42,288 nucleotides of DNA from Ignavibacteria bacterium (GTDB taxonomy: Bacteria > Bacteroidota > Ignavibacteria > UBA10030). A program made the position numbers and the translations under genes. The stretch covers positions 1-42,288 of the forward strand of contig VGWB01000005.1 of NCBI GenBank assembly GCA_016873755.1. The letters are read 5' to 3'. Each line of letters begins with the position of its first letter. Position 1 is the stretch's first letter. The notes under the pieces were generated by a model. That model did no database searches and had not been told where the DNA came from. It saw nothing but the letters and a program-made list of their open reading frames with translations. Shown here one piece after another: positions 21,727-26,862 of the stretch.

Positions 21727-22689
21727 TCAGATTGCTTCAATTGTCGAAGGGGGCTTGGGCGCAATGTTGTACGTTACGCTAACGACCGACGGCATCTCGC
21801 CGATGATCTCGGTCGCGAGCTGTTCGAGCATCTCAAACGAGAGGCGTGTCGGCGTCGCGGTCCGTGCATCAACGCTGTCCCAGCAACGGATTTCAATCTG
21901 CTGGCCGAAATCGCGTTTCCCGTTGCGCATTCCGGTGACGCGATCGGCATGGAGAATTGCCATGTACTGGAACGCTCCCGACCCCTTCAGCAGCCGCTCA
22001 ATGATGGCGGTTGCTTTTCGAACCGTGTCAATACGATCGGGCGTCGCCTCACCGATGACACGGGCGGAGAGCGCGGGTCCCGGGAAGGGGATCCGGTCGA
22101 ATGTCTCCGGCGGAAGCCCGAGCGCTCTCCCGAGCTTGCGCACGCCGTCCTTCCGGAGCTGAATGAGCGGCTCGATGATGCGGTAGCCGAACGCCTGCTG
22201 TGGATCAATCCCGAGCTGCTCGAAGACGTTGTGCTGCCTTTTGATGCCTGCGACGGTCTCATCGACGTCCGTCAGAATCGTTCCCTGGAGGAGGAACTTC
22301 GCCCCGCTCTCTCTGACGATGCGCCCGAAGACATATCGGTAGAAGGTTTGCGTAATCGCTTCACGCTTCTCTTCCGGGTCGGTTATTCCTCTGAGCGCTT
22401 CGAAGAATTCCTTGCGCGCGTCGACGAGCTCCACGGTCACACCAAGCTTCTTGAAGAGAGCGACGACCTGGGCGGGTTCCCCCTCCCGCATCAGACCGTT
22501 TTCGATGAAAACGGTCTTAAGCCGATCTCCGAGAGCCCGATGTCCGAGCATTGTGACGGTGGACGAATCAATACCGCCGGAGAGGGCGTTGATGGCCATC
22601 CCCTCGCCAACCGTGGCGCTGATCTCTTTCACCTTCCAGTCGATGAAGGATTCGCTGTTAAGTTCCTGAGCCGTGATTTCCTTGATCAT
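21727..22689 (-). CDS. Stand-alone GMP synthase ATP-pyrophosphatase subunit
   Basis: 320-aa protein equal to the C-terminal two domains of GMP synthase: ATP pyrophosphatase plus dimerisation domain. The PP-loop is SGGIDSS (37-43), followed by GVTVELVDARKEFFEALRG, LLQGTILTD, IKRQHNV, PFPGPALSARVIGE and the C-terminal KPPSTIEAI. Bacterial GuaA is normally fused to an N-terminal glutamine amidotransferase of about 190 aa; none is present, and the ATG at 22689 has GGGAGG directly upstream, so the short form is genuine. It would adenylate XMP and use ammonia from a separate glutaminase, as in archaeal two-subunit enzymes. It could also be a paralogue with a different substrate. Confidence 0.88.
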   Translation of the reverse strand: MIKEITAQELNSESFIDWKVKEISATVGEGMAINALSGGIDSSTVTMLGHRALGDRLKTVFIENGLMREGEPAQVVALFKKLGVTVELVDARKEFFEALRGITDPEEKREAITQTFYRYVFGRIVRESGAKFLLQGTILTDVDETVAGIKRQHNVFEQLGIDPQQAFGYRIIEPLIQLRKDGVRKLGRALGLPPETFDRIPFPGPALSARVIGEATPDRIDTVRKATAIIERLLKGSGAFQYMAILHADRVTGMRNGKRDFGQQIEIRCWDSVDARTATPTRLSFEMLEQLATEIIGEMPSVVSVTYNIAPKPPSTIEAI

Positions 22690-24301: not shown

Positions 24302-25039
24302 CTATTGCAGCTTCCTGATCCGTACTTCGATCCCCTTGTGGTCCTTGAGAAGTTCGACCAGCTGAGCGGTATTCGTGTTCCCGTAGTGGTACGGGTAGAG
24401 GATCTTTGGTTTGATCCTCTTCGCCGCTTCTGCCACCATCTCGGGCGTCATCGTATACGGAAGGTTCATCGGCAAAAATGCACAATCGATCTTGGCGAGG
24501 GCTGACATCTCCGGGATGTTCTCCGTATCACCCGCCACATAGATCCTCATCTCGCCGAATGTCATCACGTAACCGTTGCCTGAGCCCTTGGAGTGGAATG
24601 GGACACCCTCACTTCGCATATGCACGATATTGTACGCGGGGACCGCTTCGACCTCTATCCCCTGGATCACCCGTTCATCCCCGTTCTTAAGTACAAGCCC
24701 CCCGCGCACGCTGTTTGCGCAGGCCTGGGTGTACGCAAGTTGAGTCTTCTCAGTACGGATTTTTTCAATCGCCGCGACGTCGAGGTGGTCCCCATGCTCG
24801 TGGGTGACGAGGATGAGATCTGCCTTGGGCATCTGCGTGAAGTCAGCGTATCGGCTGACAGGATCTACGTAGACGATCTTTCCCTTGAACTCAAAGATCA
24901 AGGAACCGTGGCCGAGAAATGTCATGATGACGTTACCGTCGCGAGACTTGAGTGTATCTGACTCGAATTTTGTTTGCCCGCAGACGAGGCTCACCATGAT
25001 TCCCGTCGCTAGTGTGAGCAACAGCAGGTATCGATACAT
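24302..25039 (-). CDS. Exported MBL-fold metallohydrolase (UlaG-like)
   Basis: Metallo-beta-lactamase-fold hydrolase of 245 aa with a signal peptide (MYRYLLLLTLATGIMVSLVC). GGAGG stands before the ATG. The metal motif is HEHGDH in ILVTHEHGDHLDV, followed by VYVAGDTENIP for the later aspartate and PYHYGN with the last histidine. The MTFLGHGSLIFEF opening is typical of the UlaG/RNase Z-like branch, which acts on cyclic or phosphate-linked small molecules. The substrate is unknown. An exported member is unusual but not rare. The neighbouring genes give no shared pathway. Confidence 0.9.
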   Translation of the reverse strand: MYRYLLLLTLATGIMVSLVCGQTKFESDTLKSRDGNVIMTFLGHGSLIFEFKGKIVYVDPVSRYADFTQMPKADLILVTHEHGDHLDVAAIEKIRTEKTQLAYTQACANSVRGGLVLKNGDERVIQGIEVEAVPAYNIVHMRSEGVPFHSKGSGNGYVMTFGEMRIYVAGDTENIPEMSALAKIDCAFLPMNLPYTMTPEMVAEAAKRIKPKILYPYHYGNTNTAQLVELLKDHKGIEVRIRKLQ

Positions 25040-25205: not shown

Positions 25206-26645
25206 TCACAATATCCTCTTCTTGTCACTGGACCCCTGGGCTATTGACACTGTGGAGGGGCGGCCCATCCTCATCCACTCTGGTACAGCCACCGGCAGCG
25301 GCTTTCGTCCATAGACGAGATCATCCATCTTGCGTGCGAAGACCCGAAACAACGCCGAGTTGCGGACTCCGAACCGTATGATATTGTGAAACAGGTTGTC
25401 AGGATGTGAATATGGGCACACACGCACGCAGCGCGCACAATCCGTCCCGGAAGAACACCAGAATGTGAAACATGCCTCAGAGTCTATCTGCCATCGCCGA
25501 ACGCCGTCGATCTCGCATCGGTCACCTGATGGAATCGCTTTGCTCGGACAAACGACTGCGCACTTGGTGCACTGCCTGCAAAAGTCAATCACAGAATAAT
25601 CCCGCGTCCTGGTGTCAGTGACAAGCGGCAGATCGGTCGTAACGACGGAAAGACGAACGCGGGGTCCCAGACCGGGCGTCATTAGCAACCCCATCCTGCC
25701 GATCTCGCCGAGCCCCGCATCGCGGGCGACAAGCGGACAGACGATACGATAATTGCCGTCAATGTGAGCGCGTGCAGGATAGCCGAGTTTCCGAATGAAC
25801 TCAGCAATCTGAACTGCAATTGCGCCTGCCGCAAGATACTGCTGTGCGGATTCCATCACTGTGGGGCCGTACGGGGCGTGGTCGATAGCTTCTTTCTCCA
25901 TCTCAACGGTCAGCGCTATGGCGTACTTGTGCTTCAGGTCGATCGGTTGTCCGTACGGCTCATTTCGACCAATATGAGAGTAGAGATGATAATCCCTCAG
26001 TCCTGTGATCCCGACGGAGACAGCCCCGAGCTTGTGAGCCCACATTTTGACGAACCGCGACATTTTCGCCGGATCAGCATAGATCTTTTCTGAAGAGGGT
26101 TCATGATCCAGGATGCCATGGAACGCTGCGACGGCGTCAAAACTGGCCTGGGCCGCCGCAAACTGGCATGGTTCAAAGTAGGCTGCTCCCTTGCCGAGCA
26201 GCCCCGGCTTTGACCTGAACCGGTCGTCGGGTGCTCGTTTTTCGGGATTCCTTCGATAGTACTCGTCGAACCGCTCCGTTCCCGGTACCAGGTGATACCG
26301 GGCGAACATGATATCGCGCTCATCGATTTGGTGTCGCGGAGTATCGTCTTCAGCGATGGAGCGCTGACCTAGCGGCACGAGAAAGGCGAGTACCGCCAAG
26401 AGCGGAAGGGCAAGCAAAAGTATGGCGGCGATTTCTTGACCAGGAAACCTGATGAACCCGGCGGCCACGTACGGCACTAACAGCAGGAGGCCCATAAGGA
26501 GCATCCTGCTTGCAGCGCGGCGCTCCCCCTCTTTGACCGAGACGATGGCAGCAACTACAGTCAGGCCGAAGAGCACCAGGCCGACAGCGACCAGCAGGGG
26601 TCCGACGTAACTGAACTGGGGTGCTTCCATTCGGGGTGGTTCCAC
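25206..26645 (-). CDS. Membrane-anchored reductive-dehalogenase-like Fe-S/corrinoid protein
   Basis: 479-aa protein with three N-terminal membrane helices (about 14-37, 47-66, 71-93). The following domain matches reductive dehalogenases (RdhA) and, more distantly, epoxyqueuosine reductases. The corrinoid-domain signature GLGEIGRMGLLMTP is at 311-324. Two iron-sulfur motifs follow: Cys356, Cys359, Cys362, Cys366 (CRQCTKCAVVCP) and Cys397, Cys403, Cys406, Cys410, with C392 close by. There is no Tat signal and no separate rdhB. Charges in the loop after helix 1 suggest the catalytic domain is cytoplasmic. The start is a GTG at 26645 with AAAGGA upstream. Activity is inferred from family; it need not be dehalogenation. 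Confidence 0.82.
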   Translation of the reverse strand: MEPPRMEAPQFSYVGPLLVAVGLVLFGLTVVAAIVSVKEGERRAASRMLLMGLLLLVPYVAAGFIRFPGQEIAAILLLALPLLAVLAFLVPLGQRSIAEDDTPRHQIDERDIMFARYHLVPGTERFDEYYRRNPEKRAPDDRFRSKPGLLGKGAAYFEPCQFAAAQASFDAVAAFHGILDHEPSSEKIYADPAKMSRFVKMWAHKLGAVSVGITGLRDYHLYSHIGRNEPYGQPIDLKHKYAIALTVEMEKEAIDHAPYGPTVMESAQQYLAAGAIAVQIAEFIRKLGYPARAHIDGNYRIVCPLVARDAGLGEIGRMGLLMTPGLGPRVRLSVVTTDLPLVTDTRTRDYSVIDFCRQCTKCAVVCPSKAIPSGDRCEIDGVRRWQIDSEACFTFWCSSGTDCARCVRVCPYSHPDNLFHNIIRFGVRNSALFRVFARKMDDLVYGRKPLPVAVPEWMRMGRPSTVSIAQGSSDKKRIL

Positions 26646-26862
26646 TCGTTCCTTTCAGATGGCAGGAATGTACACCGGAAAGCAACCTCTGTCAAGGATG
26701 GAACAAGACCTCAAAAGCTTCAACGACTTCCCGTTGCTTCACCACCACAAAGTCCTTAATATTGCATGACTGCCGATTGTCATTTCCGACAGAACCCGCC
26801 TTGAAGCAGTGAATGGCTTGAAACGATTCACTCGATTCATCACAGAAATGGAGGTAGCAGAA

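Follow-up and report, generated by a model that had tools for sequence, protein, structure and literature searches.

A hybrid putative reductive dehalogenase with a shortened RdhB-type anchor and a predicted cytoplasmic catalytic domain

Reductive dehalogenases (RDases) that carry N-terminal helices were described as hybrid putative RDases by Jochum (2018) and Atashgahi (2019; PMC6797604). They are defined by three N-terminal helices, an EXE motif, and the absence of both a Tat signal and an RdhB (PMC6797604). TMHMM predicted some of them to have an exoplasmic C-terminal domain (C-out), and the table of the 2019 study lists Marinifilum fragile as C-out and M. breve as C-in (PMC6797604). The orientation, and how a C-out protein would cross the membrane without Tat, was left undecided there; the comparison presented here points consistently to the inside. 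In the 2023 structure of PceA2B2, PceB has its EXE loop on the P side, joining TM2 to TM3, and fused RDases are considered probably related to that complex (PMC10624902). A full-text search of the open-licence literature found no functional study of hybrid RDases.

The window, the whole 42,288-nucleotide stretch of DNA analysed, carries on its reverse strand an ORF of 479 amino acids with a GTG start (25206..26645); all of the features of this gene given below are on the same strand. By its sequence, the product is a member of the hybrid class already described. AAAGGA, resembling a ribosome-binding sequence, is directly upstream of the GTG, and a promoter-like TTGACA-N17-TACATT lies in the same stretch (26650..26695), both as read directly from the sequence. 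The profile search gives 162.8 bits to the NCBIfam reductive dehalogenase model TIGR02486 (curated cut-off 160.35, E 1.8e-47) and 33.9 bits to the QueG model, for which the cut-off is 200. The ORF is therefore assigned as a reductive dehalogenase (RDH) homologue, as the original prediction had it, and as a putative corrinoid/FeS enzyme. The host genome has one RDH gene above the TIGR02486 cut-off and a separate QueG gene. The Pfam matches of note were to Fer4 families only, with no listed match of the ORF to PF13486 (Dehalogenase) at E values up to 10. A search of the genome with PF13486 also gave no match, its controls being equally silent, and a PHROGs search gave none. In a sequence search of the PDB, the best relatives were the NpRdhA and PceA proteins.

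A scan of GTDB species genomes found 26 related loci, and the window protein was aligned with 25 relatives (alignment A1), 23 of the rows, the window protein included, having a membrane domain. The catalytic residues are Tyr270 (25836..25838), equivalent to NpRdhA Y426, and Arg331 (25653..25655), equivalent to NpRdhA K488 and to the Arg of respiratory RDases, the register being taken from the PDB sequence matches and alignment with NpRdhA and PceA. Both are invariant in all 26 rows, as are the eight cluster cysteines: Cys356, 359, 362 and 366 of the first 4Fe-4S cluster, a CxxCxxCxxxC motif (25548..25580), and Cys392, 403, 406 and 410 of the second (25416..25472). The corrinoid-domain signature GLGEIGRMGLLMTP (25674..25715) and both cysteine clusters are located where they had originally been read. 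The QueG of the host genome has H and F at the positions of Tyr270 and Arg331; a QueG identity for the ORF is ruled out on these residues and on the profile scores. An AlphaFold2 model computed from the 26-row alignment (pLDDT 88.9, pTM 0.87) has the RDH fold. It matches PceA (8q4h_A) in Foldseek with an E value of 8.7e-19, and VIA-align gives Z scores of 36–37 over 334–346 residues to NpRdhA and PceA 8q4h_A, against 15–16 to QueG.

Three transmembrane helices take the place of a Tat leader, as predicted, at residues 14–38 (26532..26606), 42–64 (26454..26522) and 70–89 (26379..26438) of the AlphaFold2 model, and hydropathy of the relatives agrees. There is no Tat motif ahead of the first helix; the RRxFxK signal typical of respiratory RdhA is absent from the protein. 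The EXE motif is E39-G-E41 within the loop VKEGERRAASRML (residues 37–49, 26499..26537), and nearly all of the relatives have one. This K/R-enriched loop includes K38, R42, R43 and R47, the positive charges on which the original prediction had relied. No RdhB-like EXE ORF is present on either strand within 22–30 kb, and the absence of a separate RdhB was thus borne out. For comparison, six RdhB sequences adjoining Tat-type RdhA genes, one of them fused, were made into a profile. With hhalign, residues 5–49 of the hybrid correspond to RdhB residues 32–76 (probability 94%, E 8.6e-8) with a score of 43, against 17 for the best of 100 block shuffles and 13 for the reversed control. The hybrid TM1, EXE loop and start of TM2 match the RdhB TM2, P-side EXE loop and start of TM3, respectively. 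The RdhB TM1 has no counterpart, the alignment beginning just ahead of the RdhB TM2, and the hybrid TM3, which runs into the catalytic domain, has none in RdhB. The proposal of a fused RdhB-type anchor is therefore upheld as to homology, although a whole RdhB is not present: the profile alignment supports a shortened RdhB type, consisting of the TM2-EXE loop-TM3 hairpin and one extra helix.

The distribution of positive charge indicates which way the protein faces. Over the 23 full-length hybrids there are 78 K/R in the EXE loop and 62 after TM3, a total of 140, against 2 in the N-terminal tail and 8 in the second loop, a total of 10; the post-TM3 residues are partly within the folded domain, yet the EXE loop alone still has 78 against 10. 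This pattern places the EXE loop and the catalytic domain in the cytoplasm in 23 out of 23, the window protein included, although these sequences share kinship and are not 23 independent tests of topology. The six RdhB have the opposite pattern overall, with 1 K/R in the N-terminal tails and 6 in the EXE loops, one per sequence, against 14 and 21 in the cytoplasmic segments. Counting against this placement, a share of the positive charge in the hybrid EXE loop, that of the motif Arg, is a legacy of RdhB, whose own loop is on the P side. Proteins whose cofactor domain is exported by the dual Sec/Tat route need an RR pair (PMC5449189), and since none of the 23 hybrids has one between TM2 and TM3, this route of export was rejected. 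Two members of the hybrid clade, L017 (919-2028, +) and L024 (1102-2097, +), have neither a membrane domain nor Tat and so must be cytoplasmic, if translated as read. The M. fragile and M. breve hybrids are 90% identical, so the published split between C-in and C-out looks like predictor noise. The catalytic domain of the hybrid is thus very probably at the inner face of the membrane, the side to which the original prediction had assigned it.

A different kind of fusion is found in a genome of the order Bacteroidales (G532). L063 (1453-3153, -) encodes a 567-amino-acid RdhB-RdhA fusion, separate from the hybrids, in which a complete three-helix RdhB is followed by an internal Tat motif, SRRNFLG, and then the RdhA core. 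Since it groups with a Tat RdhA (support 100/100), it represents a second, independent fusion event. Its retention of an internal Tat signal is as expected if the protein is exported.

The C-terminal end of the protein bears upon the electron donor. A pair of helices (residues 418–445, 25311..25394) aligns with the menaquinone-binding alpha17 and alpha18 of PceA, so that PceA H495, R499, D515 and Y520, with roles as given in PMC10624902, correspond to H420, R424, D441 (or D442) and Y445. H414 is at the position of PceA K489, just ahead of the pair. All 25 hybrids that have the C-terminal helices keep the pocket H, R, D and Y and carry His where PceA has K489; NpRdhA is without the His. The anchorless L024 lacks the quinone-type helices as well. 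L017 keeps the pocket residues though it has no membrane domain, and L056, a soluble NpRdhA-like protein, has the H, D and Y; organisms without quinone also retain some of these residues (PMC10624902). Given L056 and L017, taking conservation of the pocket to prove that quinone is used would go too far, and this argument was dropped. The host genome encodes a protein of the MqnA/MqnD family (futalosine menaquinone pathway) above the cut-off and a MenA-like protein that scores under its curated cut-off. Together, the kept residues and the Mqn- and MenA-like genes make feeding by quinone, with menaquinol as the electron source, plausible. There are two cobalamin riboswitches in the host genome, one of them before a gene for a BtuB-like receptor. 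Elsewhere (L068:1069-2343, +; genome G000, contig C45), a MenA-like prenyltransferase and an N-terminal PAS sensor domain share one 425-amino-acid ORF.

The full-length relatives are 41–59% identical to the window protein. Their hosts are Bacteroidota (Marinifilum, Labilibaculum and others), KSB1, Calditrichota, Gemmatimonadota and one Dethiobacter assembly; several of these species, including Marinifilum and Labilibaculum, appear in the earlier table (PMC6797604). As only 1 of the 296 genomes sampled from the window's phylum, its own, has a full-length hybrid, the gene is rare in that phylum and patchily distributed. Comparison of RpoB places the host in the FCB group, closest to an Ignavibacteria assembly (72%) and next closest to KSB1 and Calditrichota. 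In the protein tree, however, the partner of the window protein is UBA2214 (99/99) and not that assembly, and this departure suggests that the gene has been transferred between lineages. The hybrids form one clade (99/97) apart from other RDH groups in a tree of 48 sequences from which characterised RdhA sequences were left out. Soluble NpRdhA-like proteins are the sister branch, with support of 93/91 that falls short of full. Among 98 genomes of the Dethiobacter class there were mostly soluble RDH relatives without RdhB. Genomes of the window's class also contain a soluble RDH-like family with GFGELGRHGSIIHP (L031-L034), forming its own clade and keeping the Tyr, the Arg and eight Cys; the one member scanned, L031, scored 139 bits, under the TIGR02486 cut-off.

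The genes near the hybrid gene encode a metallo-beta-lactamase-fold protein (24302-25039), a PEMT-like methyltransferase, a cupin protein and others, with no evident link to it. Across 22 loci, the only neighbours to recur were response-regulator domains, which are common, and two small clusters shared by close relatives. Distant relatives have no conserved neighbour, so function could not be inferred from an operon. As far as context tells, the hybrid gene acts alone. Also in the window (21727-22689, -) is a 320-amino-acid protein with ATP-pyrophosphatase-type and GMP synthase C-terminal domains, among whose Pfam matches there is no amidotransferase family.

The family, the fold, the conserved catalytic residues, the homology to RdhB and the charge pattern are shown by computation; as to cofactor, quinone donor, substrate and physiology, we infer the following. 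The hybrid would be a cytoplasm-facing, probably menaquinol-fed corrinoid reductase, in which a shortened RdhB anchor is fused to an RdhA-type domain; a probability of roughly 0.55 is given to this. The N terminus would be outside, and the EXE loop and catalytic domain inside. Menaquinol, or another donor from the membrane side, would dock where the anchor hairpin faces the C-terminal helix pair, in the space between them, and electrons would pass through the two [4Fe-4S] clusters to the cobalt of the corrinoid. The corrinoid would remove halide, or a leaving group like it, from a substrate present in the cytoplasm or one that has already crossed the membrane. A different substrate, as the original prediction proposed, may be possible. 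Tyr270 would be the proton donor, assisted by Arg331. Because quinol oxidation and substrate reduction would both use the inner face, the site, like fumarate reductase, would make no contribution to the proton gradient. Any energy would come from the quinone-reducing enzyme; otherwise the gene may serve to dispose of electrons, or to dehalogenate compounds as a source of carbon or for detoxification. For the clade as a whole, a more tentative proposal, held at somewhat under even odds, is that it represents a menaquinol:organohalide oxidoreductase inverted in the membrane, with the RdhB hairpin keeping its role at the quinone site. The extra K/R in the EXE loop and the added helix would have flipped the module, bringing quinol oxidation and dehalogenation to the cytoplasmic side, where Tat is not needed.

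The same enzyme in the same topology could instead receive electrons from ferredoxin, flavodoxin or NAD(P)H-linked reductases in the cytoplasm, the anchor only localising a catabolic or detoxifying dehalogenase like NpRdhA. The soluble, incompletely supported sister branch, the clade members without membrane helices (L017 and L024) and the lack of a conserved partner gene are in keeping with this. It is nevertheless considered unlikely, given that the 23 full-length members keep both the RdhB-homologous hairpin and the residues of the C-terminal quinone helices, and that L024 has lost these helices along with the anchor. Less likely again is that the protein is no dehalogenase but a corrinoid/FeS reductase with the same fold and QueG-like chemistry, whose substrate in the cytoplasm or membrane is not halogenated. 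QueG itself is a case of the fold serving such substrates, hybrids are found in many organisms without known organohalide respiration (PMC6797604), and neighbouring genes are not conserved, but the hybrids without exception have the dehalogenase Tyr and Arg where the host's QueG has H and F, and the fold match to RDases is well above that to QueG.

Least probable of these readings is that the catalytic domain is exported by an unrecognised route and works as in classical organohalide respiration. The uniform C-in charge pattern and the missing RR before TM3 argue against this, and a fusion in another genome that would be exported, L063, keeps its Tat motif. The P-side position of the RdhB EXE loop (PMC10624902) and the C-out calls of TMHMM (PMC6797604) are on its side, the latter being set against the near identity of the M. 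fragile and M. breve proteins.

What is added here to the description of the hybrids is the register of their anchor to RdhB and one consistent cytoplasmic topology. With the register, point mutants can be chosen to test whether quinone is used. If the menaquinol-fed, cytoplasm-facing reading is true, many Bacteroidota of sediments, and other bacteria of the FCB group, would carry out reductive dehalogenation at the inner face of the membrane, as an electron sink like fumarate reductase and not as classical organohalide respiration.

Among the known systems, respiratory RdhA differs from the hybrid in having a Tat signal and an rdhB partner gene, neither of which is present in the window locus. 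The PceA2B2 menaquinol:organohalide oxidoreductase of Desulfitobacterium hafniense (8q4h, PMC10624902) has in common with it the fold, the Tyr and Arg, the two clusters, the C-terminal quinone helices and the EXE hairpin, but is made of two subunits, is exported by Tat and has its catalytic domain on the P side. RdhB of this type has one more N-terminal helix than the homologous part of the hybrid anchor, and the opposite charge pattern. The catabolic NpRdhA (4ras) is, like the hybrid as predicted, cytoplasmic, and has no Tat signal and a related corrinoid/FeS core. It differs in an extra N-terminal RDH-like repeat, Lys for Arg, and the lack of membrane helices. NpRdhA also carries a fused reductase, absent in the hybrid. 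QueG, an epoxyqueuosine reductase, is a distant relation in fold and FeS clusters and is without the dehalogenase Tyr and Arg. The closest likeness is to the hybrid putative RDases themselves (PMC6797604), which are about 450–480 amino acids long and, like the window protein, have EXE between helices 1 and 2 and two FeS motifs; the window protein, from a metagenome-type assembly of the FCB group, differs from these in nothing essential.
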